The translations under genes and the position numbers were made by a program. Positions 4,263 to 57,885 of a stretch of 64,000 nucleotides of DNA are shown here, piece by piece (the stretch's first letter is position 1; every line of letters starts with the position of its first letter). This DNA is from Lamellibrachia satsuma (lineage: Eukaryota > Annelida > Polychaeta > Sabellida > Siboglinidae): assembly GCA_033239005.1 (NCBI GenBank), contig BSQZ01000060.1, positions 795,001-859,000 on the forward strand. Reading direction: 5' to 3'. A model generated the notes under the pieces. The model did no database searches. It worked only from the letters and a program-made list of their open reading frames with translations, and was not told the origin of the DNA.

Positions 4263-5927
4263 ATGAAAAGCTCTGTTGTAAGTACATGCAATCGTATTGT
4301 TCGTTTGGTTTCTCACAGACACATGTTAACATTGTAGCGTTATGTTCTCAACAATTATTGTCCTTATTCAGCATGCATAATTAATTAACTTTACCAAAAG
4401 GGTTTAATTTATTTTAATTTAGTTGACACATTCTATGCATAGTTCACCGCCACGTTACCCAGACCTTTCCAGAAGGCATGTAGTCACTATTCTAGTTCAG
4501 GCATGTGGGAATGGGACGGAGAGCGTAGACACTACCAACTGGGGTGAGCAGGAATAGGAGAAAATGCCTAATTTATTTTAATTAAGTTGACAAATCAATT
4601 AATTCTTAATTAAGTGCTCATTTAACAGTTGGTATTAATGCACAGTTCACCGCCATGTTACCCAGGTGTTTCTAGAAGGCATGCAGTTACTATTCTAGTC
4701 ACTAGACTGAGAGAGATCAGGTTCAGGCATGTGGGAATAGGACGGAGAGCGTCGCCACTACCAACTGGGGCAAGCTGATCATTCAGGCAGCAGGCAGGAA
4801 TTGGAGGAAATGCCTAGACACTGGCATGTCCTTTGATTATGGCTAATCATGGCTTCTGCAAATCGCTGTCTAAGGTAAACATGTGTTGATGTGATAGCAA
4901 CATGCAGCCAAGTGAACAGCTGGGGTCATCAGACCTATGCATCTATAATGTTGTTTTCTGTAATGTAATAGAAAGGTAACATAGCTTCTGTCTGGGGGCT
5001 TGTTAGATTGCCAACTTGAAACAAAAGCTAGCCAGGTCTAACCAAGCTTAATGATCTAGTATAAAACACTGCATAACTATCAAAATAGAATTATATGTTT
5101 ATCGGTTTTAATCTTATTCAATAGTTATTATTATTATTATTTTGTCTTATTTAATTCCTTGTATACCTTAATTTATTATTTTACTATTTTAATCCCATTT
5201 GATACTTACGTAATTTTATTGCTCTTAATGTAATTTATCATTTCAATTATTTTATTCCATGTATCCATTTTAATTGTACTGCCCTTAAATGTCATCCTGG
5301 AAATCATCAGCCACAACTTTACAATCAATTCGAAATAATTAATTTCAACAAGCATCTACCACTTTTAAGATGTAACAATATGCCCCATGAACACATGTCT
5401 TGGTGTGGAAATATTGTATGAGCAAATCTCTTCAACAAAACACATTTCTGTTGTAAATCAACAATACTGTTTAGAATAGAGTACATATAATAATGTTTGT
5501 CAGATGCAAACAGTTAAGTAATTCCGTCAATGTAACCACGTCGTGTCCACCCATGTAACCACGTCGTGTCCACCCATGTAACCATGTCGTGTCCACCCAT
5601 GTAACCATGTCGTGTCCACCCATGTAACCACATCGTGTCCACCCATGCTAAGAAAACATTCACATGCAAAGATTAACAATGTCCTATTTTTTTCAGATTG
5701 TGATCCTTCTCGCAACAGCCTTGCTGGTGATATCGTGCGACGGCTCTAAAGTTGCTCCAATCCACACTTACCGATTGTGCCTGAAAATGTGTTGGAAAAT
5801 ACATAGCAGATGCAAAATGCAATGCCTCGGTCGAAGTCGAGATTCTCGCATGGAAAGGTGCAATCGCAAATTGAAGAAGTGCAATGCCAAATGCGAGAAA
5901 ATACTCAACTCCAGCAATACTGAGTAA
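4263..5927 (+). CDS. Secreted basic cysteine-rich peptide, subtype A (gene 1)
   Basis: Two coding exons: 4263-4277 (ATG plus four codons, followed by GTAAGT at 4278) and 5697-5927 (acceptor tttttttcag, stop TAA). The intron is phase 0, about 1419 nt. An ATG at 5679 lies inside the intron and is not the start. Exon 2 opens with a hydrophobic run that completes a signal peptide ending near a Ser-Cys. The mature region is about 62 residues, rich in Lys and Arg (net charge about +11), with spacing C-x3-C-x6-C-x3-C-x11-C-x6-C-x3-C plus one Cys at the signal-peptide end. This symmetric pattern suggests a disulfide-stapled helical hairpin, as in the nemertean B-type neurotoxins, or a cationic antimicrobial peptide. 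The function is inferred only. ATTAAA at about 6038 could serve as the polyadenylation signal. The closest relative is the gene at 34050-35580. Confidence 0.8.
4440..4960. repeat. Intronic interspersed repeat
   Basis: Two tandemly related blocks, about 4440-4560 and 4640-4760, share 'agttcaccgccatgttaccca', 'ttctagaaggcatg' and 'gtgggaatgggacggagagc'. A diverged copy of this segment occurs outside the duplication at about 60285-60575. It is thus an interspersed element inside the intron of gene 1, also present in unit 2. Its class is unknown. Confidence 0.5.
5531..5645. repeat. 23-bp minisatellite, 5 copies
   Basis: The unit is 'tgtaaccacgtcgtgtccac' plus three bases, repeated five times in the intron of gene 1, ending about 50 bp before the splice acceptor. 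Unit 2 has a single diverged unit at about 35272-35295. Confidence 0.85.
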
Positions 5928-6145
5928 GCCGTACAGTTAAATATGCTTGTATGAACTGATGCTGGTAATCGATGTTTCTGGTAGCCGTTCTCTAGCCTCC
6001 ATTCTTGACGAACGTCAAGACTCTTTGCGTTATGCAATTAAATGTGTCATTACGATTACTGTACCGGATGTGGACAACGTCATTAGCTATTTAGAGCATA
6101 AAAGATTTTAAAAGATTTCGCAAGATCGCAGTCCAAAACTACAAG

Positions 6146-6330
6146 TTCCAGGTGGAAAGTGAACAAGGAAGCAACTGGCTTATCGAGAGTCCAACATTTT
6201 TTTATCTACGCCCTTATCATATATCTGTCAATTTAATGTTTTTTAATATCTTCTCAGTACTAGCATTAACACAACCATTTGACAGTTTTTTCCTTTCCTT
6301 TATCACCTTCTATGAGAATTAGTCAATTGT
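6146..6330 (-). mobile_element. CR1-type LINE, decayed 3' end
   Basis: On the minus strand this matches the 3' end of the CR1 family seen elsewhere in the window, with 'ggcttatcgagagtccaaca' and the codons for the SSVNMFKN-like C-terminus degraded. It is absent from the matching place in unit 2 (near 35755). Confidence 0.65.
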
Positions 6331-6680
6331 TCAAGCACCAGTGAGTTCATTTACTCCATGGTGATGCTATTTTGTTTCCATATACATATATGTATATGCG
6401 CATGTAGAATCTATTTTCCTTGGAATTGTTGTATGCTGTCCTCTTTATCTTGATTCAGTTATTCAACTCAGCACAGGAACATCACTCAACTTTTTGTGGA
6501 AGTACGCTTAACATCTAGGTAAATTTCAGATATCCCACACCCTATATTACAAAGTTGATAGTTGATCTCCCTTTATCCCTGTCTCACCGCGCCTAAATAA
6601 TCGGAAACCCGAACTCAGAGGCACATCAAACCGTACGGGTTAGGCAGTCTCAGTGTAAGTATATAAGTTGTCAACAGATG
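6331..6680. other. Non-coding, no recognised feature
   Basis: I see no gene. Part of this stretch (about 6470-6640, 'cagcacaggaacatcactc') resembles about 36885-37105 in unit 2. Confidence 0.4.
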
Positions 6681-7062
6681 GATGAAGTCTCCAGATGACG
6701 GCTAAATGTCGTTATATGTCATGATGAAGTCTCCAGATGATGGCCAAATATCGTTATATGACATCATGAAGTCTCCAGATGATGGCCAAATGTCGTTATA
6801 TGTCATGATGAAGTCTCCAGATGACGGTCAAATGTCGTTATATGTCATGATGAAGTCTCCAGATGACCGTCAAATGTCGTTATATGTCATGATGACGTCT
6901 AAAGATGACGATCAAATGTCGTTATATGTCATGACGAAGTCTCCAGATGACGGTCAAATGTCGTTATATGTCATGATGAAGTCTCCAGATGACGGTCAGG
7001 TGTCGTTATATGTTATGATGAAGTCTCCAGATGACGTTCAAATGTTCAAATTATATGTCAAG
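6681..7062. repeat. 42-bp minisatellite, about 9 copies
   Basis: The unit contains gatgaagtctccagatgacg, then gtcaaatgtcgttatatgtc. The 42-nt length is a multiple of three, so a spurious 123-codon frame stays open. The matching site in unit 2 (about 35755-35850) has two units. Confidence 0.9.
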
Positions 7063-7949
7063 CTGCCGTACCACTAACAAGGACTGAGTTCCAAAGAGTT
7101 GGTGCGGCAACCGATAAAGCTCTAGTTCATACAACTATTTCATAACATGAGTCAAGGTCAGAAGGGTGTTACCGCTACCTGACCAAACCTCTTGACAATG
7201 ACACGTTTAAACTGGAAACAGCGTACCTGTTGAATTTAAAGAGGACGTCCATTTTTAACTACACACCAATGCATTTATATTAAAATTTTATAATTGTATT
7301 GTGAGATTACCTACAACTAGGTTTCCTTGAATTTCGCAGTCACCATTGAAACCACCCGTGATGTCACCATTCATCGCTATAATCATCACGGGTAACATAA
7401 CATAATCTGCAATAATTACTTCTGTTAGGGACCGTTCACAATTGTCAACATTTCCTGCCCGTACAAAGCGTAAAAAATAGTGATAGGGGCCAACGCCCGC
7501 GTACTAATTTTTGTAATGTCGGTCGCACAAAAAATTTCACCACCGTTGAGGGTCATAGAGCGGCGCTGCTACAGAACCACACCGCGTAACCTTTCACGGC
7601 GCTTCACTGTCAGACACTCCTTCATCTTGGACATTCACAACTTCGTGGAAAACAATTGTCAATATATGACATCATGGAGTTGTCAAAAAAACACATGATA
7701 ATTGGAGATAAATGTTTGTAAACATAGTCTGACGGTTATTATTGTGTGATAACATTGTTACATCAATATATATTTTTAATGTGGAAATTTTTCAACATTT
7801 CAAAGTACTAATTCGGGGAGGGGCGGGAAATATGAGGATTAGTACAAACAGGTAAATATCGTCAGTCGTGAACGGCCCTTAACCTGCGTCACAAAAACGA
7901 CGACGACAAGTGATATAATCTCACAGTCGCCAAATTGTTTTATTTTCAG
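7063..7949. other. Intron-like flank of truncated exon copy P1
   Basis: This sequence recurs before the other truncated exon copies, for example 36000-36690 in unit 2. Shared words include 'ggtttccttgaatttcgcag', 'gaaaccacccgtgat' and 'aacataacataatctgc'. It appears to be the 3' part of the family's intron. A scrap of L2-like LINE lies near 7100. No 15-nt first exon was found. Confidence 0.5.
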
Positions 7950-8060
7950 ATCGTGATCCATTTCGCAACAACCTCGGTGACAATATTGTACTCAGACGCC
8001 ACCGTTTCTACAATGATGCAATATCGGTTCTGCATAGACGTTGACATTGTTTCTGCATGA
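7950..8060 (+). pseudogene. Truncated exon-2 copy P1 of the cysteine-rich peptide family
   Basis: After a good acceptor (tattttcag), 36 codons and a TGA follow. The first 15 or so codons match the signal-peptide part of exon 2 of the intact genes, and a Tyr-Arg-Phe-Cys corresponds to the first mature cysteine. The frame then ends eight residues later, so no cysteine scaffold remains. No first exon is visible. It is either a dead partial duplicate or, less likely, a very short secreted peptide exon. Confidence 0.65.
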
Positions 8061-8626
8061 CATATTTTGTATTGTTGTCTTTGTAAGTAAATAAACGTTT
8101 CGAATTCCTCTTACGTTGGAAATAACGCGTGCTTCGCAAAACGTAAGGGTTAGTTAATTTCAATGTAATTATACAATGTTGAAGTGGTCAACATATGGAT
8201 GAATACTACAAGGCACTCAGCACTTTTAAAACGTCTTCAGATGAGGGCCAAGTGTTATTATATGTCATACTGTCACTGACATGGAATGAAAGAGTTGGTG
8301 CGGCAACCGAGAAAGCTCTACTTCATACAACTATTTCTTAAAATGGATCAAGGTCAGAAAGGTATTCCTGTTACCAGACCAAACCTCTTATCTATACCAC
8401 AAACGCAACGACACTTTCAAACAGACAACAGCGTACCTGTTGAATCTAAAGGGGACGACCACTTCCAACTAGGTTTCCTTGAACTTCGCAATCACAATTG
8501 AAACCACTCGTGATTTCACCATAATCATCACGGGAAACAAAACATAATCTGCTATAATCACGTACGTTACCCCAGCACTAAAACGACGACAATCTCACGT
8601 ATGCCAAATTGTTGTTTTATTTTCAG

Positions 8627-8734
8627 ATCGCGATCCGTTTCGCAACAACCTTTCTGGCGTTATGGTATTCAGGCGCCAACGTTACAATAATGCGATATCG
8701 GTTCTGCATAGACGTTGACGTTGTTTCTGCATGA
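8627..8734 (+). pseudogene. Truncated exon-2 copy P2
   Basis: Acceptor tattttcag is followed by 35 codons and TGA. It is like P1 but one codon shorter and with an internal Trp. It keeps the same ending after the Tyr-Arg-Phe-Cys motif. The flank before it (about 8150-8626) repeats that of P1 in shortened form. The counterpart in unit 2 is 37667-37777. Confidence 0.65.
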
Positions 8735-9012
8735 AATATTTTGCGATATTGCTTTTGTAATAAATAAACATTTTCTTATTCCAGATTCCTCCTACGTTGG
8801 AAATAATACGTGCTTTGGTAGCAATTTAAGGCTGCTTAGTTTAGCGGTGTTGACTAATATTAACATTTCCATGGAATTCTGACTATTTAAATTAGTCTTG
8901 CGGTTTTATATATTTAGCATCATTTGTATAACTAAACATATTGGAAGGTTAACTATTAGCAAACGAATTTGTAACAACCAGATTAAAGATTATTTGTTGA
9001 GAGTGTAAGCGG
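8735..9012. other. Non-coding, shared with unit 2
   Basis: I see no gene. It corresponds to 37778-38057 in unit 2, with only scattered differences. It ends at 'gtgtaagcg', where unit 1 carries an insertion. Confidence 0.5.
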
Positions 9013-10076
9013 TCGATTAATAACATTATCACCATAGAGATATATAGTAGCTTGGGGTATAACGCTCAGTTTTGGGGCATAACGCCCACCCCCAACTAGT
9101 TACACGGGTCGAAAATTACAATTTCGAGATCGCCAGATGAAGCTACATATCGACATTCGCATCTGGTGCATCGGAGATTGTCGCAGAAGTAAAACGCGCA
9201 GTAAGCTGTTCATATTAAAATTTGGCTTTATAATTATAACAATTGTCCTTGCCAAACTAGGACTTTGTACAGTAACCACGAGAGACTGTGACAAAGAACT
9301 AAATGTATAGTATAGACATATATGCATATAATAGTTTTATAAATGAATAGGTTACGGGCGATATATGAGAATAATATTGAAATTAAGACATTAAAATATT
9401 GCACATGTGGGGTAAAAAGGCCTACACACAGTAGGAGCAAAACGCACAGATGGCAAGTGGTCAAGGAAGCCATTGGCTTATCGAGAGTCCAACAATGTTC
9501 ATCTACTTATAACTCGCCCTCCTGAGATATGTGTCAACCTTGTTTTTAAACATATTCACGCTGCTAGCAGTTACACAATCTGTAGACAATTTGTTCCATT
9601 CATTTATTTTCCTCTGTGAGAACGAGTGCTTCCTGATGTCCAATCTACATTGATCCTTTACTAATTTTACCTCATGTCCTCTAGTTCTGCTATCCTTCTT
9701 GAGTGAGAAAAACATATTTCTATCAATATTTTCATACCCATTCAATATCTTAAAAACTTCAATCTGATCTCCTCTTAACCTCCATGCCTCTAGAGTTGTT
9801 AAATTACATTCTTTCAGGCGTTCTTCATAACTAAGGTCTCTAAGTTCTGGAATCAGCATGATCTCGCTTTAAGGAATCCATGTTGAGATGAATTTAATAA
9901 TTTATGCTTAACGAGGAAGTCCACCATATGGTCTTTAATTAACCTTTCTAATAGTTTACAAATCACTGACGTTAAACTCACTGGTCTGTAATTCTCTGAC
10001 TTATTTCTCGAACCCTTTTTAAATAATGGTATGATGTTTGCCGAGTTCAACCCGTATTGCGGCCGAGTTCAACCCG
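9013..10076. mobile_element. Insertion in unit 1 (CR1 plus unknown DNA)
   Basis: Unit 2 reads straight from 'gtgtaagcg' into 'tacttgggcgagttc' at about 38057. Unit 1 has about 1064 bp between these words. About 9013-9430 is unrecognised sequence; the rest is the CR1 listed separately. The right edge has a short duplication of 'ccgagttcaacccgta'. Confidence 0.65.
9430..10050 (-). mobile_element. CR1 LINE with an internal deletion
   Basis: The minus strand encodes part of the reverse transcriptase start ([20 protein letters not shown]) down to FLKARS (10050-9862). It then jumps directly to the C-terminal segment beginning LIPELRDLSYEERLKEC and ending TYLRRASYK (9859-9503). The catalytic core between them is missing. 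The 3' end lies at about 9430. It is non-functional. Confidence 0.85.
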
Positions 10077-10356
10077 TACTTGGGCGAGTTCATCAAGAAC
10101 GTTCGATTATGACGTTTGAATAATTTTAAACTCCATCACGCGTTGGCACAAATGAGCGATTGTTTCGTCGCACGGAAAAACGATCACAGGAATTTCTAGG
10201 TATAATCAGAGACAACCTCGGCTTGGACCTCGTATGTTCCAATGCTCATTGTCAGTTCTAAACTCCCCGACAGTGGCGCCACTCAGCATATCACCACTGC
10301 CACACTTCACCTCTCCTCACCTATTCTCTTCGGTTCCAATGGCCCATAAGGCTTAA
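10077..10356. other. Shared non-coding block with 'cagtggcgccact' repeat
   Basis: It matches 38058-38340. It includes one of six copies of an interspersed repeat ('acagtggcgccactcagcat', here at about 10271). No gene is seen. Confidence 0.5.
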
Positions 10357-11945
<1,589 letters not shown>

Positions 11946-12344
11946 AATTCCCGCACTCTGTAAGACTGTGAAAATACTTGTTAGTTGCTGTTTATTTTGT
12001 TGCAATGCTAAATGGTTGGATGCCAGAGGTTTCTACTCTTAATCACTCATGTCTTCTCACGTTCCCTTTATGCGCACACACGCACACGCACACTCACTGT
12101 ATGTTATAATAGAGCCTAACCGAACTAACCAGTGCTGCCTCTGGTGGAGCATGCGGAGGCAGTGCCCACGAGTCCCACGGCATCCTGTTGGCAGCAGTAC
12201 TGTTGATGGATCGTGCCACTATGCAATGTACGGAAACATATGATTATTTTACTTTTGGGTTGATGATTTACGAACAAAATGCAAAATCCCTTTCCGTTGC
12301 TTTTAACGCAGATCGCTACTAACAATAACAGAATGTCCGAAAAA
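11946..12344. other. Non-coding, partly shared with unit 2
   Basis: About 12214-12320 ('tacggaaacatatgattatt') matches 40545-40645 in unit 2. No gene is visible. The stretch ends where a CR1 has inserted. Confidence 0.5.
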
Positions 12345-14190
12345 CATGTCTGAATCAGGTTTTGGATGCGTGAGTTTAAATGCTAGGAGTACAGTAAATA
12401 AGAAAAACGAATTAAACAGTATGGTAGAAGATATTGACCCTCACATAATTGGAATTACCGCATCATGGGCCAAGACAGACATAACAGATGCTGAATTAGG
12501 ATTGACAGGATACGTAATGTTTATGAGAGATCGAATAGGAGGGGGGCGTTATTTTATATGTAAAATAATCTATTCAGGCTTATGAAATAAAATTAGAAAG
12601 GGAAGCAGATTACGATGAAGCTGCTTGGTGCAAAATAGTTTCAGGAAACTATTGGATTACTTTACCGAAGTCCAAACATAAACGAAGAGGATAATACAAA
12701 AATACAAAATGCTATAAAGGAAGTTAGTAAAGGGGAATGTATCATAATGGGAGATTTTAACCATGGACACATACAATGGAAATCTCTAGAGAGTACAGGG
12801 GGTGAGGACTAACAATTAATTTCTATTTTTAATTCAGGATAGCTTCCTTACTCAGCACGTGCTAGAATCAACCAGAGGACAAAATGTATTAGATATAAAT
12901 TTATTAGTGGACAATGTAAAAATACATGATCCATTGGGTAACAGTGACCATAATCAAATACATTTTGACATCAATGTAAAATCAGAAAGTAAAAATAAGA
13001 AAACGTACAAGAGAAACTTCCACAAAGGTAACTACAAAGATATGAGAAAATACTTAGCAAAGCTAGATTGGAATAACATGCTGATGAATAAGACCGCAAT
13101 TGAATGTTGGAATATTCTAAAATATGATGAAATTGAGAGTATCATCGATAAATTTGTTCCCTTGAAAAAACAAAGAACACGGTCTAGAAAGAAACACTTG
13201 TCAAAAGAAACTATTAAAAACCCTGTTTAAGCAAACTATGTGGAGGGTTTATAGGCGTACCAGAAGGGATGAAGACTATGCAAATTACAAAGGGGCACTT
13301 AAGAAGATGACATATCTAGCAAAGTACTCAAATTTGCAGATGACACAAAAGTATTCAGCAAGGTTACTAATGATACAGATAAACAAAGTTTACAGGATGA
13401 TCTAGATAAATTAATTAAATGGTCGAAAAAATGGCAAATGTTATTCAATTTTGGGAAGTGTAAATGTATACACATAGGACATGGAAACATGGACGAAGAA
13501 TATAAAATGGGGGATGCTGTACTAGGTAGAACCACACAAGAAAAGTACTTAGGAGTAACATTTAGTGCTGACATGAACGTTTCAGAGCAATGTGGGATTG
13601 CTGCTTCGAAAGGAAATCAAATTCTAGGGCTAATTAGGAGAACTATCACGTATAAGGAGAAACAGCTAATTGTACCCCTGTACAAAGCAATAGTTAGACC
13701 ACATTTGGAATATTGTATTCAAGCATGGAGGCCGTATCATAAAAAGGACATAGACAAGCTAGAAAGAATACAACAAAGAGCAACTAAAATGATTCCATAA
13801 TTGAGAGACCTTAGTTACAAAAATCGCTTAGTAAAATGTGGTTTGACAACACTAGAGACCAGGAGACTAAGAGGAGACCAAATTGAAATGTTTAAAACGG
13901 TTATGAGGATGTTGATAGGATTATGTTCTTCAAACTTAAAGAAGGCAGTAGAACCAGAGGACACAAAGCAGCAGTAGTTAAGGAGCAGTGTAGGTTGGAC
14001 ATGAGAGATGATTGTGTTAATGCTAGTAGTGTGAATATGTTTAAAAATAGAAACGACAGATATTTGATAAGGGCGGGCTACACATAGATGAGAAAATTGT
14101 TGGACTCTGGATAAGCCAATGGCTTCCTTGTCCACTTGCCATCTGGAACTTGTTGTTTGGGATGGCAATCTTGTTAAATCTTGTTAAATA
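12345..14190 (+). mobile_element. CR1 LINE, internally deleted, unit-1-specific insertion
   Basis: The 5' part is the endonuclease: SLNARSTVNKKNELN near 12370, GITASWAKTDITDAELGLTG near 12450, MGDFNHGHIQW near 12750 and the conserved NSDHNQIHFDI near 12940. It then jumps at about 13305 from the inter-domain linker to [20 protein letters not shown], so the first half of the reverse transcriptase is missing. The C-terminal segment runs to about 14085, and the 3' end carries cttgttaaat twice (about 14165-14190). The flanks 'cgctactaac' and 'aacggcgttg' are adjacent in unit 2 (about 40695), which gives the empty site. Confidence 0.9.
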
Positions 14191-14533
14191 TAACGGCGTT
14201 GGTAAACTCTCCGAATGACTCGTCACATGCGGCTAGTGGTTCGAAATAATTTTATATATTCAGTGGCGTAGTTTTCGCCTCACCCCAGATTTTTCCTCAT
14301 TTGTGATCTCGCAGGATCTTACATTATACATGTCATTAGCCCGATATCAAATTATATCGGTCAATGGGAATATGAAAGTTAATTTTTTCGAAGAAACATG
14401 ATGATGAAACATATTTATGAGACTATGTTCGTATATCTAGTTCGGCATTAATTGCCAGGTGGCCTTACTGGTACAACACGTTTGGGCATTTTGTAAATAC
14501 GCCATGTTTCACTTCATCGGACGAAAATGTAAG
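14191..14533. other. Shared non-coding block
   Basis: It matches 40705-41055 in unit 2 ('ggcgtagttttcgcctcac', 'attgccaggtggccttac'). No gene is recognised. Confidence 0.5.
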
Positions 14534-15767
14534 CAACTCTTGTTGTCAACCCTTTTAACACACTCCCTGACCGTTTGTTGTCAACCCCTTTAACACACTC
14601 CCTGACCGTTTGTTGTCAACCCCTTTAACACACTCCCTGACCGTTTGTTGTCAACCCTTTTAACACACTCCCTGACCGTTTGTTGTCAACCCCTTTAACA
14701 CACTCCCTGACCGTTTGTTGTCAACCCCTTTAACAGACTCCCTGACCGTTTGTTGTCAAACCCTTTAACACACTCCCTGACCGTTTGTTGTCAACCCCTT
14801 TAACACACTCCCTGACCGTTTGTTGTCAACCCCTTTAACACACTCCCTGACCGTTTGTTGTCAACCCCTTTAACACACTCCCTGACCGTTTGTTGTCAAA
14901 CCCTTTAACACACTCCCTGACCGTTTGTTGTCAACCCTTTAACACACTCCCTGACCGTTTGTTGTCAAACCCTTTAACACACTCCTGACCGTTTGTTGTC
15001 AACCCCTTTAACACACTCCCTGACCGTTTGTTGTCAACCCTTTTAACACACTCCCTGACCGTTTGTTGTCAACCCCTTTAACACACTCCCTGACCGTTTG
15101 TTGTCAACCCCTTTAACACACTCCCTGACCGTTTGTTGTCAACCCCTTTAACACACTCCCTGACCGTTTGTTGTCAACCCCTTTAACACACTCCCTGACC
15201 GTTTGTTGTCAACCCCTTTAACACACTCCCTGACCGTTTGTTGTCAACCCCTTTAACACACTCCCTGACCGTTTGTTGTCAAACCCTTTAACACACTCCC
15301 TGACCGTTTGTTGTCAACCCCTTTAACACACTCCCTGACCGTTTGTTGTCAACCCCTTTAACACACTCCCTGACCGTTTGTTGTCAACCCCTTTAACACA
15401 CTCCCTGACCGTTTGTTGTCAACCCCTTTAACACACTCCCTGACCGTTTGTTGTCAACCCTTTTAACACACTCCCTGACCGTTTGTTGTCAACCCCTTTA
15501 ACACACTCCCTGACCGTTTGTTGTCAACCCCTTTAACACACTCCCTGACCGTTTGTTGTCAACCCCTTTAACACACTCCCTGACCGTTTGTTGTCAACCC
15601 TTTTAACACACTCCCTGACCGTTTGTTGTCAACCCCTTTAACACACTCCCTGACCGTTTGTTGTCAACCCCTTTAACACACTCCCTGACCGTTTGTTGTC
15701 AACCCCTTTAACACACTCCCTGACCGTTTGTTGTCAAACCCTTTAACACACTCCCTGACCGTTTGAC
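14534..15767. repeat. 35-bp minisatellite, about 35 copies
   Basis: The unit is gtttgttgtcaacccctttaacacactccctgacc, given in two parts: gtttgttgtcaacccc and tttaacacactccctgacc. Copies are nearly identical; C/T and A/C variants are interspersed and a few copies lack one base. Unit 2 has a single unit at about 41688-41722, followed by the same 'gactccataggagtgttgg'. Confidence 0.95.
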
Positions 15768-16490
15768 TCCATAGGAGTGTTGGCCAGTATCACTACAAGA
15801 CAAGACAAGACAATACAAACAGTGGCGTTACTCAGCGCATAGCCACTGTCACAACTTTATTATACATTCAAAATGAACGGCTGTTGAATTGGTATAAACG
15901 ATTGGTTGGCTAGGCAACGCCGTTATTGTTTAAGCATTGTTATGACATTACAACTGTGCACTTGAGTGACGTAACATAATTTCTTAGGACAACGAAGCTT
16001 ATTGTGTTTCTATGCAAATACTGTCCGCAGTGGTGTGTAATTGAAACTGAGAGATGTATTAACAAACAATTGGAATTTATACCAAATGAAATAAAGAATT
16101 CTGCACATCAAATGTAAGTTGTGGCAGGGATGATTTGATCGCTATCATAGGAGATGGGGTCATTTTCCAAGAGAACATGCTCCAAATGCCAAATTATGGA
16201 AATCGTTTAACAATCTCACCCATTACGCAGCTGTCCGTTTTTTGTTCTCACTTGAATGCAGAGGAGATTCGTAGATGCACTTAATGTAGCAAAATAATAA
16301 ACTGTAGCTCTTATGCAAAGGAACCACCGCTATAAATTCACGTCTTCATAAATGTCCACCATGATAAATGCAACACCAGTTCACACAATACGCAGTTAAT
16401 CTCTGTTATGGATTGTTGACATATTTTCATCGAATTATGCTCATTCAACATAGTATTTCTTTTGTTTAATTCAGCACCTGTCAACATGAA
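15768..16490. other. Shared non-coding block with interspersed repeat copy
   Basis: It matches 41723-42345 in unit 2. At about 15818 it carries another copy of the 'acagtggcg..actcag' repeat. No gene is seen. Confidence 0.5.
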
Positions 16491-16526
16491 ATGTGGTTCG
16501 CCAAGGAAAATCTTGTAAGTTTGGCT

Positions 16527-16622
16527 TCAGACGTCCATGCAGAAAACATTTCGGAGCATGGTAGAAACGTTGGCAACTGGATACGATATCGTCAGCGAGG
16601 TTGTTGCGAAACGGATCATGAT
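16527..16622 (-). pseudogene. Truncated exon-2 copy P7, inverted
   Basis: On the minus strand an acceptor cattttcag (ending at 16623) is followed by 31 codons and TGA. The start matches the signal-peptide codons of P1-P6. The copy has a single cysteine three residues before its stop. It lies in opposite orientation to the four intact genes of the two units. The counterpart in unit 2 is 42453-42386. No first exon was found. Confidence 0.6.
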
Positions 16623-16639
16623 CTGAAAATGACACAACA

Positions 16640-17985
<1,346 letters not shown>

Positions 17986-18114
17986 ACTATAGCAGGCCAG
18001 CATGAATGTGTGATCAAAAAGTAATTGTGCGCCGGTGTTGCCAAATACACTCAGAGCTGTAATCAAATGTGACTACCTTGTCAATACCTAAGTAAGACAA
18101 CAAGTAGTAATCAA

Positions 18115-19158: not shown

Positions 19159-21440
<2,282 letters not shown>

Positions 21441-42385: not shown

Positions 42386-42453
42386 TCAGGCTTCCATGCA
42401 GAAAACATTTCGGAGCATAACCCCAGAGAGGTTGTTGCGAAACGGATCATGAT
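42386..42453 (-). pseudogene. Truncated exon-2 copy P8, inverted and deleted
   Basis: Counterpart of P7. After the minus-strand acceptor it has the signal-like codons, but about 28 bp are missing and the frame is shifted relative to P7. Confidence 0.6.
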
Positions 42454-44060: not shown

Positions 44061-44100
44061 ACATTATTTTACAAGCTGCGGTGGAAAGTGATCCGATAAC

Positions 44101-44966
44101 ATGAAAGGCTGCCTCGTAAGTAAACATACTCGCCGCATTCATTAAAAGTCCATCCTCAACTATTGAAGCCTATCGCAAATCCGTTGAAGTCCAAATATAT
44201 AGTGTGTGAATAGTTTATGTAACATCCGGGGTCAATTTAATATAAAATGCCTATTTGTGTTCAAATTATCATAACAATTTAATTTAGTCGTTAGATCTGG
44301 TAGGGCTCAAAATAGTGGATATCCAAACTGATAAACATTGTGCAGGTCAATGCTGATCATAGGCGTGACTTCCATCCTCTCGCCGATCACATGACAAAGT
44401 TGCGCGATATTTTACTAAGGGCGAAATACGTGAGTTTTCATCGTTTCCATTTTCAATTCACTTAATATTTGACAAAACATTAAATAATTTAATAGTTTGT
44501 CTGATGATTTCACAAATACTACGTACAATTGTTTTCACAAAATGAATTTGAAACGAGACTAGCAAACTAATCGAATTGAGGAGGGATCTTTAAATATGTT
44601 AGTTTGTTCTGACGACTTCATCACTAATTGTTTTACAGTTTATGCGTCGTTGCTTCAAAATCACATCCTGCTATAACAATATCCAATTATCGATGTACTT
44701 TTTACTGTCCACGATTAGAAGCATTGTGTGTTTTATTTCAGATCGTGTTCCTGTTGGTAGCGGGGGTGTTGGCTCGGCTGGGTTTCGGCGAAGAGGCTGT
44801 TCCGGTTTCCACTGAGCTTCAAACATGCAAGAAAAAGTGCTGGGACGAATACAAGAAATGCATTGCATCCCTCCCGGGTGGGAGATCTGCAGCCCGCAAC
44901 CCGCCCTGTTGGACAGTGCTTGAAGTCTGTGACAAGGCCTGTGCGGAATCAACCGTGTCTGATTAA
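44101..44966 (+). CDS. Secreted cysteine-rich peptide, subtype B (gene 4)
   Basis: Exon 1 is 44101-44115 with donor GTAAGT. Exon 2 is 44742-44966 with acceptor tttatttcag and stop TAA. The intron is phase 0, about 626 nt. The signal peptide is almost identical to that of gene 2 (one conservative change in exon 2). The six-cysteine pattern C-x3-C-x6-C-x15-C-x6-C-x3-C is kept exactly. About a third of the mature residues differ, including charge changes such as Lys to Glu and Asp to Ala. A conserved signal peptide with a fast-changing mature region between fixed cysteines is typical of venom and immune peptide families. The function is inferred only. The intron is the best match to the relic at 241-715. 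Confidence 0.8.
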
Positions 44967-45578
44967 AAAAACGCCTTTCGCTGCGTGCATCAACAGGTAT
45001 TGTATATAACTCAAGTATGGGGCAAGTCGTGTGACCAATATTTATGGCTATAAGGAACATGCATTCTCCCGGATTGTCATAAAGATGCCAAACCTATGAA
45101 ATCGTCAGCATTACCTATCTATATTTAACAATGGAATTGTCAGAATTAGTTTCTGTATTTAACAATTATATGCACATTAGTTTCTTCCTCTACTAGTACC
45201 TCCCCGCTATCTACTCGTATGCTAGTCTGGTTTATGTCATGTTAGTCACATTGAAAAGCATCATGATGCATTGATCGCTTAATTTAAACATGGTATTTAT
45301 ATGTATGACGGAGGATACAGCACTAAACACAGAAACATCCCCTGCTTTAATGTACTGTATAATATTATGTTATACTGTGTATAATTTTCCTATAGCTAGT
45401 GAATATTTGGTTGTACATTGGTTTGATTTGCAGCTGTTTTAGTGAAGGTCGTATGCACAAATATTACGCCGTCGCATCTATTTCGAACATCACTGACTAC
45501 TGCATTGTGCAATACGCATAACACAAAAATATATAATATAAAGTAGTTTGTGACTCTACAAAGTAGTTTGTGACTCTG
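44967..45578. other. Non-coding after gene 4
   Basis: 44967-45180 matches 22709-22915. The rest is unrecognised and AT-rich. Confidence 0.45.
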
Positions 45579-45785
45579 TATGTATGTATGTATGTATGTA
45601 TGTATGTATGCATGTATGTATGCATGTATGGATGTATGTATGTATGTATGTATGTATGTATGTATGTATGTATGTATGTATGTATGTATGTATGTATGTA
45701 TGTATGTATGTATGCATGTACGCATGCATGCATGCATACATGTATGTGTATGTGTGTATGTGTATGTATATGTGTATGTATGTAT
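45579..45785. repeat. (ATGT)n tetranucleotide array
   Basis: About 50 units with interruptions (gcatg, ggatg) and a final mixed TG/TATG part. Frames of Met-Tyr-Val-Cys or His-Thr-Tyr-Ile repeats here are artefacts. Confidence 0.95.
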
Positions 45786-46445
<660 letters not shown>

Positions 46446-47497
46446 CTTTTTCAATGAGGACGAGGCGAAAATGTTCTCCAAATGGCTCATATTACATTAC
46501 ACGTTGGAAATATGAGCATCGCCCATGACACACAGGCTGAGAGAATAATGAACTCATAAAAAAACGCAATTTATGTGGATGTAGATTACAAATATATGAA
46601 TGTATGATGTATGTGATGTATGTGATGTATGTGATGTATGTGATGTATGTGTATTCACCCAACATGCGGAAATCGTAAGAAATGTTATTCATTGTTGTTC
46701 ACGAACATATTTCTAAATTGTGTAGTTTTACCATTGCAAATAGTGCTGCGTGGTCTGCCACACTCTGTACCCCAGCAAGTAGTCGCCAGACGACAACATA
46801 TGTTACCATATGGCCCATATTAACAGTATGCTCATATTATCGAACCATCCCATATGTTCTATACTGTTCAACATTAATCATACATTGAAGTTTATACTGA
46901 ACATATAAAGGAGTACACATTTATTGCAAACCTTAAATCCCCAAAACGTAAGCTTTGACTTTCAGCCTGAAATACAAGGTAACCATAACACCTATATTGG
47001 TCTTCTACATAGTAAATTAAATTCAGTGCACCAGGAACCAAATAAATGGAAAGATATAAAGTTGGGGATAATACCAAAAAAAATATTTCGAAAAACGAGG
47101 AGCTGGGGTATAAAATTACCCCCAGATATGCATATGAGGGTTAATACTCTTAGACAATCCGACACTGTGGTGTGCACGCATGCATTAATTGGTTCCTTGG
47201 TAGTGATGTTTTACAATACGTAGCTCACAACAGGGTTGGGTTCAATTACAACTGTCAATTACAATAACAATTACATAGCATCATAACAACTCACAGTTTC
47301 AATAACAAATTAAATAATAAATTATAGCTACAATTACATCGCATGAAATGAAACCAATCATAATTACAATTATGGCACAATTACACTGCTGCATAATTAC
47401 ATTTATAGTGTTCTAATTATTCAATTACAATATAATTGTAATCAGCTAAAAATTAAGCATTTAAAATTGCAATTAAACACAACCCTGGCGCACATAA
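46446..47497. other. Shared non-coding block
   Basis: 46880-47470 matches 23320-23900 of unit 1. A (ATGTATGTG)n-like run lies at 46603-46652. No gene is supported. Confidence 0.45.
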
Positions 47498-47575
47498 GTC
47501 TATTTTATGTGGAATTGTTGTGTACTACATGTGTCAATCTTGATTAAAGTAATTAACTCCGTGCTGGAACATCGC
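47498..47575. repeat. Single 77-bp unit (unexpanded form of 23932-24400)
   Basis: One copy with a few substitutions and the same flanks as the six-copy array of unit 1. Confidence 0.85.
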
Positions 47576-47624
47576 TCTATTTTCGTCTAAGTATTAAAAC
47601 CGTTTTGTTTTTCACATAATGTAT

Positions 47625-47700
47625 GTCAGCCAGTGGCTTCCATGTTCACTTGCGATCTAGGCCTTTGGCTTGGGTGGCAAATCTTGTTAAATCTTGTTAA
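47625..47700 (+). mobile_element. CR1 tail insertion (3' UTR only)
   Basis: About 75 bp: 'gtggcttccatgttcacttg' to 'cttgttaaatcttgttaaaa', the extreme 3' end of a CR1. Unit 1 lacks it at about 24440, where 'atgtataattaagt' is continuous. Confidence 0.8.
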
Positions 47701-48373
47701 AATTAAGTTATATAACATTAGACAATGGGTCACCTCACACTATCTATTTTGTTTTTGTAATCGAAATAAAAGCGACGGCTTCATAAAGAAACGTGCGCAC
47801 TTCACTAATGTAAACATACGTAAATCAAACCAATAATGTCTAAGTCAGTCTATGATTTCATACACACTGTGTTTATAATTTAGTATTAGTAAACAAGATT
47901 TCCTTTAAGCGAGCTTTCACCTCATCCATTAATGAGTTCACCTTTTCACTTGTACGTGTTGCATAAAGCGGATAACGATTTAAACTTCGGACGTGCCGAC
48001 CAAGTCGCTTATCTACACAGCACACATAATGGTAGTTTCAAGCTTACAACAAGTGTAATGCACACAATGCTGTCGAATCTAAAGACGATCGCTTTCAACA
48101 CCCCATTAATACATTTACACAATCACATTATTATCTTGGTTCACCACAATACCATTTGATCATTACATTATGAAATTACCAAACAAACACGTTTCGCGCT
48201 ATGTTCGCATTAGAAACTATAAGTTATGTCACCATTCATCATTCACCATTCATTCAACATTGGCGATACTTATACTACCTCCATTACTAATATTATCATT
48301 ACCACTACTACACCGTCACCACGATGATAAGTGATATAATCTCACATTCGACAAATTGTTGTTTCATTTTCAG
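47701..48373. other. Shared non-coding block
   Basis: 47701-47980 matches 24445-24690, and 48140-48373 matches 27690-27918, the intron-like flank of P6. No gene is seen. Confidence 0.45.
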
Positions 48374-48604
48374 ATCATGATCCGCATCGCAACAACCTCG
48401 CTGGTCAGTCCGTGTTCAGGCGCAGGCCCGTCCCTGGGGTTTTGAAAAGGGGGATCCGGGCGTACACAATAAGCCGCCGATTTATGTGATGATTTGTGGA
48501 AAGTGTTACAGTTAAACAATTTCTCTCCAAAAGGTGGTTCGACCCCCCTCCCCGGGGACGGGCACGAGGCGCCAACTGATATTAGTTCTACACGGACGTC
48601 TTGA
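48374..48604 (+). pseudogene. Truncated exon-2 copy P6, split by a MITE
   Basis: Acceptor tcattttcag is followed by signal-like codons. A MITE then interrupts it within the word 'caggcgccaac' at 48423-48566. The end of the truncated frame follows, with TGA at 48602. It is the counterpart of P3. Confidence 0.65.
48423..48566. mobile_element. MITE of about 144 bp with GC-rich terminal inverted repeats
   Basis: The ends are aggcccgtccctgggg and ccccggggacgggcacg (inverse, two or three mismatches). Flanking 'aggcgc' on the left and 'aggcgc' on the right form a target-site duplication. The uninterrupted exon word 'tcaggcgccaac' in P2 and P5 shows the empty site. Confidence 0.7.
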
Positions 48605-48729
48605 GACAACATTACAAGAACCGCATCTCACGATGAAGAAGAATTTTATTTGACACAGCAGACATTATAATTTTACATAGTATGGTATAACTTATGATTT
48701 TACATAGCATGGCATAAGGGTATAAACAT

Positions 48730-49949
<1,220 letters not shown>

Positions 49950-50250
49950 CCTTTGTATTTAATATTGTATTATATTTGATTATCATTAATTTTTCGTATT
50001 CAGAAGAATCATGGTTTGTTAATTTTAATTGTTTGTAAAGTTTATCTTGGTATCTTATTGATGTTTGCAAACCTCGGGTTATCCATTTATACGTGTTAGG
50101 TTTGTATTGACTGAATTTCACTACTTTACTAGTTGTATATTTATTTTTAGCTTGATTTATTTCACTAAGTATCATGATATAATTATAGTTTGTGCCAGCA
50201 TTTGGACTTATATCTAGTTTCTTATATATTTCGGAAGAGATTATAGCACG
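49950..50250 (-). mobile_element. LINE fragment (endonuclease-RT linker)
   Basis: The minus strand reads VVKFSQYKPNTYKWITRGLQ and TSIRYQDKLYKQLKLTNHDS. It is the counterpart of 28333-28620. Confidence 0.6.
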
Positions 50251-50735
50251 TTTGACTTTTTTAATGTTAACAAGCCAGGACAGTGATTACTTGAATCCTG
50301 TGTGAAATTTATTTTGCTTTTATCATGATTTATATTGAAAAAAACGTTCATTTGTGTATGTTTGTACCTTTGTCTTTGCCTTTGTTCTTGCGCATATACG
50401 AATATTTCTATTCAACAAGCAAGGGTGTAAGCGTAAGCATTAACAACGGACATATTCATGTTCGGGGGGATGGTGAATCGGTTTCTACAGACTGACCCTT
50501 GGAACATTACCTCTTGTAATACGCCCCATAAGGTATTTCATCGGACAGCGTTCAAATTGGTCTTAGCAAGTGTCTTCCGTACACTGATTTATTTGTTAAA
50601 CTATATACCGCATAAGCTGTTGTCTACATTTGGTTTAGTGACGTTGTCTTATTTTGGACTCTCAATAAGTTACACATTCCCCAACTCCTGGTTCATCTTA
50701 CGTCGGAAATAACGCTTTTGACATTGGGCCCATAA

Positions 50736-51621
50736 CAATTTAACAAGATGTAACAATGTTAGCTCAGGATATGCCATAAAGAGCAAACAAACAAATGACA
50801 ATTTAACAAGATGTAACAATGTTAGCTCAGGATATGCCATAAAGAGCAAACAAACAAATGACAATTTAACAAGATGTAACAATGTTAGCTCAGGATATGC
50901 CATAAAGAGCAAACAAACAAATGACAATTTAACAAGATGTAACAATGTTAGCTCAGGATATGTCATAAAGAGCAAACAAACAAATGACAATTTAACAAGA
51001 TGTAACAATGTTAGCTCAGGATATGTCATAAAGAGCAAACAAACAAATGACAATTTAACAAGATGTAACAATGTTAGCTCAGGATATGTCATAAAGAGCA
51101 AACAAACAAATGACAATTTAACAAGATGTAACAATGTTAGCTCAGGATATGCCATAAAGAGCAAACAAACAAATGACAATTTAACAAGATGTAACAATGT
51201 TAGCTCAGGATATGTCATAAAGAGCAAACAAACAAATGACAATTTAACAAGATGTAACAATGTTAGCTCAGGATATGTCATAAAGAGCAAACAAACAAAT
51301 GACAATTTAACAAGATGTAACAATGTTAGCTCAGGATATGCCATAAAGAGCAAACAAACAAATGACAATTTAACAAGATGTAACAATGTTAGCTCAGGAT
51401 ATGCCATAAAGAGCAAACAAACAAATGACAATTTAACAAGATGTAACAATGTTAGCTCAGGATATGTCATAAAGAGCAAACAAACAAATGACAATTTAAC
51501 AAGATGTAACAATGTTAGCTCAGGATATGCCATAAAGAGCAAACAAATAAATGACAATTTAACAAGATGTAACAATGTTAGCTCAGGATATGCCATAAAG
51601 AGCAAACAAACAAATGACAAT
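50736..51621. repeat. 63-bp minisatellite, 14 copies
   Basis: The unit is acaatttaacaagatgtaac, aatgttagctcaggatatgc, cataaagagcaaacaaacaa, atg. The only frequent variant is C/T in 'atgcc/atgtc'. The 63-nt length keeps a minus-strand frame open for 316 codons (21-residue repeat), which I regard as spurious. No array occurs at the matching place in unit 1. Confidence 0.95.
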
Positions 51622-51639
51622 TGGAGAGCAATTGTTCAA

Positions 51640-52530
<891 letters not shown>

Positions 52531-52904
52531 AACACATTTTATTTAAAGTAGTGTGGTGACGAATTTGATACATACAATAGATGAGGTATGTTATGTTGAT
52601 TACACCAAAACGGACGCAAACTGTCAGTTATGATACGAGACTAATGACCATACCATTAGAATATATTTCAGGATTATTCGGATTATTTTAAAATCAAAGG
52701 CAATGTCCACCCTATTCATTACCAACAACCACGTTTTTGTTATAAGCAGATGCATTATTGCCAACCGTGAATGGTGACCACCTGTATGCTTGGTAAGAGA
52801 AATTTGCAAGGTCGGACACGAATCTGTATAAATATAGATTCTCTGGTTTGCTAAGCATCTTCAAAAGGAAATCTTCGGGCCAAGTGGGATATACTGAATG
52901 GATC

Positions 52905-52970
52905 TCGCGAGACTGACTGCGAGACTAACTGCGAGACTGACTGCGCACAGGTAAACTACTCGCAAGAGTC
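52905..52970. repeat. Short form of the 31-bp repeat
   Basis: About two partial units of 'gagactgactgcgcacaggt', as against 6-7 at 31262-31463. Confidence 0.75.
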
Positions 52971-53990: not shown

Positions 53991-56529
53991 TAAAACATAT
54001 TTTTTAACCTACGTTAAACCTTTGGTGATTGTATTTCATTTATGCTCGTGTTTAAACTATCAAACACGTGACTAGACTTTATTGTCTGATCAATTACAAA
54101 TGGTTTAACTATACACTGGTAAGGTAGTTTTACATTGCTTGAAAATACATAATTGGGTTCATATTTCCGGACAATTTGGGAAATTTGGACATCAAATAAT
54201 ATGTTTAGCCTGCAACTTGGATGCTCTTTAGTGAATCATTGCAGTGTGCTAGCTAGAAACACCATCAGTCCTTGAATCCACTGCAACTGTCCCCATATGT
54301 GCACTACAGTAATTGTCACGTTGAACCCATTTGTAACTAATATACGTTAGTGTCGCCATCTAGTAGATTATTCATCTACGCGTAACCCGTCCTTCTCACG
54401 TAATTATCAATTTTGCTTTTAAAAATAATCATGCAATTTACACAATCAGCAGATCATTTGCTCCATTCATTCATCGTCCTTTGCGAGATTACTTTTTATA
54501 TCCAATCTATACTATGCGTTTTGGTTTGTCTGCATACCTATGTGTACGTGTGTATATTGTGTGTGCCTACATTATGAGGAGATTATACAGAGTCCACATA
54601 TTCGGTCAATGTTCAACTACACACATGAGTATATGAAACCCATTGGATGGAGGAATTGAAGGCCATATCATATTAATATTACCTTAAGTTCACTTGTAAA
54701 TCAACACATCTCAAGTATTTACTAAGACTTCAGCGAGACATATCGCACATCGCTGTTGATGCGACCGTTTAGTTTGACACTCACAGTCATAAGGAAGATA
54801 GAGGAACCAGAGGACACGAAGTAAAATCAACAGCACACCTAGGAGGTGAACCATCGTCAGATTCTTAATTTCATGGGCCGCGCCATACTGTTAGATAACA
54901 CTACGTCACGAGTGCGGCATTCTGGCAATATCGCTCGCCAAGTGAAAATATATTTATAAACACCTATTCCTATTCTTGCCAATATTATATGGCCATGCTA
55001 TTTGCGTCCAAATTCAACTGATGTAACATGTATTGACCTTTGTTTACTAAACTAGCCTTCTTTCGGACAAAAGAACACGTTTGTTTGAGATTGGTTTGGA
55101 TTTGCATTGGTTCTGTGTATGCCGGCCTCCCTTAATACGTCACTTAAGTCTCGGTTACCCCGATTTCACAGAACTGCGCTTGTGCTTATCGGTCGTGCTG
55201 GTTAACATGTCCGCCCTCGGTCGTTCGGAGAAACTACCAAAATCACCCACTTTCAGAACAGATCTGATTAAACCACTGGCGTGAAATTTTTATTGTAGTT
55301 GGAAATTGTTTGTTTTGATTAACTCTTAGGTGCATAGCCCCGAAAACATGTTCTTGTATCCCTTTAAGTAGTAGACGGGTTAAGCCGGGTACGTCGCAAA
55401 CAGGTGTTTGTTGTTTCGTCTCTCTAAATATAATAACACATTGTTTACGCCAGTAATACTCCTAGTTTATCGATGTATATTTGCAATGCAGTCACTGGTG
55501 CCAGCTGCAAGCTGCAAGACAAGTGAAGACCATCTGCAATCAGATTTCTAATGTTTTCGTTGATAAATATATATTAGATGTATACATAGATTGATATATT
55601 ATTGGTGGTCTTTAGTCCATGTCCAATCGGACTATTAGAAACTGTTTTGACTCTAAGCACGGACAACAGGAACTAGGATATTTATAAATAAACTAACGTA
55701 AAAAAGCTGGTAAAATTATATACAATTCCAGGTTGACTATTAGCAAATTAACAATTAACGATTAACGAAAAGATGGTGACATTAGATACAATTCCAGGTT
55801 GGCAGCAGAGCCAAGGCTGCAGCCAGTTTATGTGTGAAATAACAATGTTAAAATATGTAAATTTCAGTAAACTAGTCGTTGCCAACCCCAGAATAACTTA
55901 TAATGATTGTAAAACTATTATTAACAATAGCATTAATAATAAATAGTTAATGTTCAATTATGCGGTTTAATAAGATATTACATACATGTGATGATATAAA
56001 ACATTGACAAATGGTAGCATATAAATTGATAAAACAATAGATGTGTGCTCACGAAATCAGACGTGGTGAAAGGTATTACTAGTCAGTTAGAACATACGTT
56101 AACTTATACAAGTAAAACGTATATAGCGAAAAGTATTATCAATTCATCAAACCGTACTTGGTAATAAGCCGTTGATCGAAGCATGATTAAATCTGTAAAA
56201 TTAGGGTAAATTGTGAGTACTAAATTTTACAGTGATATCCTTGCATTGACTGCATATGTACTGCATAATATGTACCACATACGTTCATTCGACATATGGA
56301 GTTCTGTTTATCTTTAGCACATATCAACATGATGCGGTCGTCTAGGACAGTTTTGAGAATGTAGAACTGGAGACGGTTGGTTGACGCCGGTATAAGGTTC
56401 CAGAGAGACGGGTCATATTCTGGAAAAGAAATAACAATGTGTAATAATTATCGACCGAGTTTTTGAAGAATTGAGTTCTCATTATCATTAAACAATCTTC
56501 TAATTAATCGTGTGATCTGGACCCATTTC
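53991..56529. other. Largely unrecognised non-coding DNA
   Basis: Two decayed CR1 scraps are recognisable: about 54380-54530 (minus, 3' end) and about 54785-54840 (plus, 'ggaaccagaggacacgaagt'). The remainder, including 55000-56500, shows no frame longer than chance and no repeat I recognise. Confidence 0.45.
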
Positions 56530-56770
56530 CAAAACTTCTACTAAAAAGCACTGGCACAGCTGTTCGGTTGTCCTGGACCCATTTCCAAAAGAATTGTCTG
56601 ACACGTGTGGTACTCAGTACATCTCGTTTTGACCATCCCTATCAATACTTGGACAGTTACACTGGCTTGCTGTTACTATCGATACCAATTTTAAACTGTG
56701 CACCCTTACATATCTTACATATCTTACATATCGTGCTCTGGTTTTTTCATAATCACGTTTACTTAGCAGA
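56530..56770 (+). mobile_element. L2-like LINE C-terminal scrap
   Basis: In mixed frames it reads DPFPKELSDTCGTQ, SRFDHPYQYLDSYTGLLLL and INFKLCTLTY-like, the segment after the reverse transcriptase in L2/CR1-like elements. It lies directly downstream of gene 5. Confidence 0.55.
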
Positions 56771-56791
56771 ACCAGTAGCTGAAACATTCAT

Positions 56792-57885
56792 CTATATCAT
56801 AAACGTCAGTTCAAACAATACATATGAATTCAATATGTGTGTAGCGTACTTGGCTTTTTGCAGTATTCTCGCACATTTGGCTTTGCATTTGTTCCATTTG
56901 TTCAAACATCGTTCACGACGAGCAGGTTTAGGTGGGTTAAAGCATTGTTTCACACAGCTGCTGAATTTCACGTTACACATTTTCTTGCATGCCTTGTAAA
57001 TCTGGACAGGATCAGATTCGCTCTTCCCTCCGTAACACGATGTCGCCAGCAAGATTGTTGCGAACGCGATGACGATCTGAAGTGCGTTCAAAATGCCGTG
57101 TGACACACATTTCTCGATACACTTCACATTGCTTTAATAATTGCAGAATATAAACAAAGCAAATTGTCCTCCACATATCATATCAAGGTACACATGAAAC
57201 TGTTGATTGATATATTTGTACATAAAATGCAAAATAGGTAGGTTTTAAACATTACAAAAACCGTAAGTTACATTTCGTGTCCTGGCTTGCATGTTCCGTT
57301 TACATTTAACTGAAAAAAAATCAAACGTATTCATAACATTATATCTACAAAATAGAAGCAAATAGGGCCAGATGAATGTTTGCTATCGTTGTCACTTCAT
57401 TGTTCGACAACAGCACGGCAGGTAGTGATGTGTTGAAGTAGTTCACCTCTCATATAACCAGGTACCTTAGTTTCCAAACGTTGAACCGAACCGTGTCTGG
57501 TGGCCTCATCGGGTGTGCATCGCAATGAATTGTTGCGTGTTTCACATTGACGTAGTAACGATGAAAACTTCATCTTTTAATCTCATAGTTGGTTGAGACT
57601 AAGTCTTAGCTTCGCTACGAAACCACAGTTGAGTAATTTCCTGGGCTTCTAATGTTGAATGCGTTTATACACATACTGCCCAGTATTATGGAGGCTTGTC
57701 GAGCCAGGGGTGGAGTCGCTACTACATGTTAATGGTGATGGTCTTGGTGGGCGAAATTGACGAATACGAACATAGAAGAACAATACAATCATTATCTAAC
57801 TTATCACGGTACATTGAAGACACTGTTATGCCTGCAACCAAACGAATGTGTAGCATTTGCTTGTACTTACAATGGAACTGTTCAT
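56792..57885 (-). CDS. Secreted basic cysteine-rich peptide, subtype A-like (gene 5)
   Basis: Minus strand. Exon 1 is 57885-57871 (ATG plus four codons, donor GTAAGT). Exon 2 is 57076-56792 (acceptor cacttcag, stop TAG). The intron is phase 0, about 794 nt. The mature region keeps C-x3-C-x6-C-x3-C-x11-C-x6-C-x3-C plus a Cys at the signal-peptide end, and is Lys/Arg-rich. Most other residues differ from genes 1 and 3, so it is an older paralogue. It ends with about 20 extra residues after the last helix, some hydrophobic; either this is a real C-terminal extension or a second intron removes it (a weak GTACGC lies just after the Lys-Ala-Lys). It lies outside the duplicated units and in the opposite direction. 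The role is inferred as for the other subtype-A genes. Confidence 0.75.
57128..57860. other. Intron of gene 5, no repeat recognised
   Basis: AT-rich non-coding sequence between the two exons. No similarity to the introns of genes 1-4 was seen by eye. Confidence 0.5.

Follow-up and report, generated by a model that had tools for sequence, protein, structure and literature searches.

The plant α-hairpinins are helical hairpins that carry two C-x3-C motifs and pair C1 with C4 and C2 with C3. Aplysia attractin, a pheromone, is a helical hairpin with six cysteines paired I-VI, II-V and III-IV. Here we describe a cluster of five genes for small cysteine-rich peptides in the vestimentiferan tubeworm Lamellibrachia satsuma (Siboglinidae), located in a 64-kilobase (kb) stretch of genomic DNA (NCBI GenBank assembly GCA_033239005.1, contig BSQZ01000060.1, positions 795,001 to 859,000 of the forward strand; hereafter the window). 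Each gene begins with an exon that supplies five codons and is followed by a phase-0 intron. The BCR and NCR symbiosis peptides, as described in the available parts of PMC3574423, PMC9604261 and PMC7230169, offer a likeness, being small, secreted, cysteine-rich and lineage-restricted in hosts with bacterial endosymbionts. The tubeworm peptides are likewise small, cysteine-rich, apparently secreted and, by the one word-based protein search design used here, lineage-restricted. Their cysteine spacing is not that of the aphid BCR peptides, nor is their predicted fold: BCR4 is classed with the defensins (PMC9604261), whereas the tubeworm peptides are predicted to form two helices.

A precedent for the gene layout comes from Drosophila. 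In the accessible text of PMC1626468, Nielsen and Wernersson report that introns in signal-peptide genes tend to be of phase 1 and to lie close to the cleavage site, and also that phase-0 introns of Drosophila peak at position 5, with 88 proteins in the peak, 38 of which are cuticle proteins. A phase-0 position is counted there as the residue following the intron, and in 80 of the 88 peak proteins this intron is the gene's only one. The tubeworm genes resemble these cuticle-type genes in that a phase-0 intron interrupts the signal peptide a few codons from its start. They fall outside the position-5 class, as an intron after codon 5 is position 6 in the same counting: the Drosophila intron lies one codon earlier, the proteins differ, and one tubeworm gene, E5, has a second intron in its deposited model. 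The splitting of the signal peptide after five residues, called unusual in the original prediction for this DNA, is uncommon but precedented.

The coding exons of the five genes are located as follows.

4263..4277, plus strand: A1 exon 1, coding part (MKSSV); the upstream frame reaches a stop before any in-frame ATG
5697..5927, plus strand: A1 exon 2, coding sequence and stop; mature peptide assumed from 5745
21970..21984, plus strand: B2 exon 1, coding part (MKGCI); included in deposited LSAT2_008297
22484..22708, plus strand: B2 exon 2, coding sequence and stop; the spliced product is LSAT2_008297
34050..34064, plus strand: A3 exon 1, coding part (MKSSV); 15/15 nucleotides (nt) the same as A1
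35347..35580, plus strand: A3 exon 2, coding sequence and stop; from the sequence read and comparison with A1
44101..44115, plus strand: B4 exon 1, coding part (MKGCL); 14/15 nt the same as B2
44742..44966, plus strand: B4 exon 2, coding sequence and stop; from the sequence read and comparison with B2
57871..57885, minus strand: E5 exon 1, coding part from the M-x4 start (MNSSI); the deposited start is at 57936, 17 codons upstream
56850..57076, minus strand: E5 exon 2; its end follows the deposited model (56792 in the earlier note)
56413..56419, minus strand: E5 exon 3, coding sequence and stop; from the deposited three-exon model

When the sequence was read at these positions, all five exon pairs showed the predicted arrangement: ATG and four further codons are followed by the donor GTAAGT and a phase-0 intron, and the second exon opens with Ile-Val. 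The acceptors all end in CAG, the coding sequences are divisible by 3, and each protein contains 7 or 8 cysteines. The phase-0 introns are 1419 (A1), 499 (B2), 1282 (A3), 626 (B4) and 794 nt (E5) long. The proposed family of secreted cysteine-rich peptide genes, with two coding exons and a phase-0 intron after codon 5, is thereby supported, and for two of the five genes the junction is present in deposited proteins. We consider the gene structure, in which a phase-0 intron separates a five-codon start exon from the second exon, almost certainly real.

The start exon is supported by several observations. The pattern ATG-N12-GTAAGT occurs at 7 sites in the window against 0.91 expected; none of 100 shuffles reached 7, the shuffle maximum being 5. 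Five of these sites are the five genes, on the same strand as the second exons and 514-1434 nt 5' of them, and from the window expectation any one locus has a chance of about 1.4% of carrying a site of this kind in the 2 kb upstream of it. The remaining two, at 1103 (plus strand) and 33505-33485 (minus strand), had no matching second exon in a cysteine-pattern scan. In four of the five genes the open frame entering exon 2 contains no ATG, so that an upstream start exon is needed. In A1, A3, B2 and B4 the frame 5' of the M-x4 start runs to a stop with no ATG between; the M-x4 start is therefore forced, unless there are further upstream exons. The five-codon first exon is the sole solution common to all five genes. 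A tblastn comparison of the five proteins with the window gave the five second exons as the strong matches among those listed; with A1 as the query these had E values of at most 2.4e-5, and the next match listed was at 0.024. A six-frame scan of the window for the cysteine pattern found the five genes and no sixth.

Two details of the original prediction required adjustment. It spoke of a 15-nt first exon; the coding part is indeed 15 nt, but the exon is longer, since a 5' untranslated region (UTR) precedes the coding tip. Because the 15 nt are continuous with the 5' UTR, ultrashort-exon splicing of a true microexon is not required, and we set that idea aside. It also held that callers of open reading frames (ORFs) start these genes inside the intron. 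With an ATG this is true of A1 alone; in B4 and E5 the intron offers just GTG or TTG, and in B2 and A3 no such codon at all.

The start exon would encode the first five residues of a signal peptide. The second exon, after the phase-0 intron, would supply the remainder of that signal peptide and the entire mature product, about 58-61 residues long. All five products have a hydrophobic N-terminal stretch (12-residue Kyte-Doolittle mean 2.9-3.3), suggesting that the peptides are secreted and that the signal peptide is removed. We assumed cleavage after residue 21, and the charge and spacing figures depend on this site. With it, the mature peptides of the window genes are 58-61 residues long. The A and E types have 7 cysteines with the spacing 3-6-3-11(12)-6-3, a net charge of +12 to +14 and an isoelectric point (pI) of about 10, and would thus be strongly basic with an extra cysteine; the B type has 58 residues, 6 cysteines with the spacing 3-6-15-6-3, a net charge of -1 and a pI of 5.3, which would make it slightly acidic. 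The AlphaFold2 model of mature A1 had a predicted local distance difference test score (pLDDT) of 85.7 and a predicted template modelling score (pTM) of 0.65, with helices at 5-26 and 32-58. The A type is thus predicted to be a hairpin of two antiparallel helices; the same fold is predicted, less surely, for the B type. A three-disulfide ladder, joining the first cysteine to the last, the second to the second last and the third to the third last, is proposed because the cysteine spacing is a mirror image, i, i+4, i+11 in helix 1 and j, j+7, j+11 in helix 2.

We compared the window genes with deposited proteins. The spliced product of B2 was identical to LSAT2_008297 (P0002) over 79/79 residues. 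The three-exon join of E5, together with 51 nt upstream, gave LSAT2_008294 (P0003) over 99/99 residues; its intron 2 is 430 nt long (GTACGC...CAG), and in-frame ATGs lie 17, 19 and 26 codons 5' of its M-x4 start. The two identities agree with L. satsuma, or a near-identical source, as the origin of the window. E5 had been proposed as 57885-57871/57076-56792. Its exon 1 and GTAAGT junction were retained, but not its end, as the deposited exon 2 stops at 56850 and a third exon follows; the two-exon form reading through to 56792 was dropped for the deposited model, which may itself be a prediction. The further idea that the first exon generally escapes annotation was not supported, for the deposited models include it in both B2 and E5. 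The products of A1, A3 and B4 were not among the deposited-protein matches, within the length and word limits of the search. A literature search found no paper describing the deposited L. satsuma annotation; the available text of PMC8277472 mentions the species once, for a transcriptome.

Protein searches identified seven deposited relatives, six of them L. satsuma proteins from contigs of 475,697 and 691,391 bases and the seventh from Ridgeia piscesae, with E values of 2.0e-8 to 9.4e-35 and the cysteine core C-x3-C-x6-C...C-x6-C-x3-C.

L. satsuma: LSAT2_008290, 008292, 008294, 008297, 002468 and 002470, all deposited as hypothetical
Ridgeia piscesae: NP493_719g01003, deposited as hypothetical

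All share the cysteine spacing, and the six L. satsuma proteins also have the M-x4-Ile-Val start, which three of them (008290, 008292 and 008297) use as the beginning of the model; they differ from the window genes in the longer N-termini of the other three, an extra three-cysteine tail in 008290 and the truncation of the Ridgeia protein to a 48-residue fragment. The tail of LSAT2_008290 (P0001), at the C-terminus and seen in no window gene, may reflect a genuine additional exon or an error of gene prediction. The Ridgeia fragment (P0007) begins inside exon 2 and has no signal peptide, an instance of a missed first exon. The M-x4-Ile-Val start and the core cysteine spacing were found in 9/9 distinct full-length members (the five window genes, P0001, P0004, P0005 and P0006); the intron itself was seen in the five window genes, the four further L. 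satsuma members being known as proteins and not as genes. The five-codon intron layout is inherited within this tubeworm family. The second exon of A1 is 76% identical to LSAT2_008290 over its whole length. Because their best window matches reach only 72% and 70%, respectively, 008290 and 008292 are, by sequence, additional genes. The locus-tag order, in which 008297 is B2 and 008294 is E5, probably places them beyond the right end of the window.

With our single search design, relatives were found in Lamellibrachia and Ridgeia alone. The family is provisionally restricted to vestimentiferan tubeworms, as the collection may lack the proteomes of other tubeworms. None of the five exon-2 products reached a curated cut-off in Pfam-A; a Pfam-A search with the first member gave no family, and the seven-member set gave weak scattered matches, the best at E 0.047. 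The peptides match no named family that we found, and would represent a lineage-specific secreted family partly present in the deposited annotation as hypothetical proteins.

Self-blastn indicated that four of the five genes lie in a duplicated unit.

3742..31338, plus strand: A+B unit, first copy; outer limits of collinear matches, interrupted by repeats
33526..52967, plus strand: A+B unit, second copy

The copies are joined by same-strand collinear blocks of 67-96% identity, for example 3742-5556 to 33526-35297 at 90.2% and 21997-22905 to 44281-45165 at 80.8%, and the shift between them falls from about 30 to about 21 kb. Each copy has a single A gene and a single B gene, both facing the same way; the copies measure about 28 and about 19 kb, through repeat differences. 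On this sequence evidence the window consists of two diverged tandem copies of the A+B unit plus one inverted E gene, and the five genes therefore represent three lineages, not five independent cases. The copies would have been produced by tandem duplication of the A+B unit. A1 and A3 agree at 99/100 nt of the upstream sequence and at 15/15 nt of exon 1, and are 92.4% and 93.9% identical over the intron and exon 2; the corresponding values for B2 and B4 are 87/100 nt, 14/15, 84.3% and 85.3%. For A1/A3 the synonymous divergence (dS) is 0.161 and the nonsynonymous divergence (dN) 0.041, giving a ratio (omega) of 0.25 (Fisher p 0.020), a pattern of purifying selection on this pair. E5 had been taken for the most diverged member. 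That position belongs to B2 and B4, with 24-36% identity to the other members compared, while E5 has 45% identity to A1. In a tree of ten sequences, B2/B4 stood apart from the rest with full support, E5 joined 008292, and the Ridgeia protein joined 008290.

We considered whether a sixth gene lies near the left edge of the window (242-705) and rejected this, as the segment contains no copy of exon 1 or exon 2. This segment is 70-83% identical to parts of the B2 and B4 introns and is probably an interspersed repeat common to them. The window is 37% G+C; AT repeats, minisatellites and pieces of reverse-transcriptase sequence are abundant in it. Among 10 ORFs scanned, three gave reverse-transcriptase matches: 29853-31019 (minus strand) to RVT_1 at E 2.2e-23, and 13303-13797 (plus strand) and 59230-59568 (minus strand) below the Pfam cut-off. 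Two long minisatellites were found, one at 14540-15765 (35-bp unit, 35 copies, 98%) and one at 50735-51622 (63-bp unit, 14 copies, 99%) with an open frame of >300 codons on each strand.

Our best reading, which we favour with modest confidence, is a multigene family, so far seen in vestimentiferan tubeworms only, of small secreted helical-hairpin peptides directed at defence or at microbes. As to role, host defence or action on microbes or symbionts in a gutless, symbiont-bearing worm is a tentative assignment, somewhat short of an even chance; it is preferred because such a host has here a lineage-restricted, diversifying family of small, apparently secreted peptides that are rich in cysteine and, in part, strongly basic. 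Several points weigh against this reading. Within 2 kb, alternative first exons (a GTRAGT donor and an in-frame phase-0 ATG) exist for B2 (one), A3 (one) and B4 (two). Three of the six deposited models start upstream of M-x4 (008294 by 17, 002468 by 14 and 002470 by 29 residues); these extensions may be translated 5' UTR, because the other window genes cannot be extended likewise. The B2 model reached moderate confidence (pLDDT 73.8, pTM 0.52, helices 9-27 and 38-56), and both AlphaFold2 models were built from 7 sequences. The B type is not basic and is ill-suited to be a simple cationic antimicrobial. Finally, omega for B2/B4 is 0.81, with synonymous and nonsynonymous rates that do not differ (p 0.66); 21/58 mature residues differ between the two and 0/6 cysteines are among them (hypergeometric P 0.057), so that the sequences suggest constraint on this pair through the cysteines only, short of the 5% level.

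The high B2/B4 ratio would also suit some or all of the five loci being duplicated pseudogenes whose common pattern is merely inherited similarity, as would the location of A1/A3 and B2/B4 within a segmental duplication with repeats and insertions and the lack of A1, A3 and B4 among the deposited proteins found. Frames and splice sites are intact in 5/5, the A pair is under purifying selection, the cysteines are kept and the deposited proteins include B2 and E5; we consider decay very improbable. Water-borne or tissue signals, pheromone- or hormone-like and analogous to attractin, are unlikely, if worth considering: the 58-residue, six-cysteine B peptides with their two-helix model recall attractin, likened by description only, and several diverging paralogues would suit species-specific signalling. 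Neither the sequence searches nor the fold comparison matched a molecule of this type, attractin itself being compared by description only; strong basicity, as in the A and E types, is less usual for signals, and the literature search gave no link.

A structural role as bulk-secreted peptides of tube, cuticle or mucus, cross-linked through cysteines, is quite unlikely. An early phase-0 intron likewise marks Drosophila cuticle genes (38/88 peak proteins; PMC1626468), and the A and E types have an odd seventh cysteine that might join one molecule to another. Against this, the tubeworm intron is displaced by one codon, the Drosophila peak is not known outside insects, no cuticle or chitin-binding family of Pfam matched at cut-off, and the peptides are small, soluble-looking and non-repetitive with conserved cysteine spacing. 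Venom-type, toxin-like peptides are a further reading to which we give little credence. It draws on a sea anemone peptide, acrorhagin I of Actinia equina (PDB 6ux5). This entry was listed by the profile search, where C-x3-C-x6-C in its first half lined up with that of helix 1, and again when folds were compared.

The preferred defence or microbe-directed reading has a more specific form, distinctly speculative and improbable as it stands, in which the family would be a vestimentiferan counterpart of the NCR and BCR peptides: helical-hairpin peptides sent to the trophosome, where the basic A/E and acidic B types might jointly contain or modify the endosymbiont. Joint action is suggested because A and B are co-duplicated as one unit. 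The main text of PMC9921365, on Ridgeia, names neither L. satsuma nor antimicrobials. In the available text of PMC6918071, a Riftia proteome study, antimicrobial peptides were sought by >75% identity to known ones, a criterion that cannot detect a lineage-specific family such as the tubeworm hairpin peptides. The shortness of the coding tip of exon 1 has consequences for annotation, of which the 48-residue Ridgeia fragment without a signal peptide is an example. Gutless tubeworms must control one bacterial partner within their tissue, and the cluster supplies named, sequence-defined candidates.

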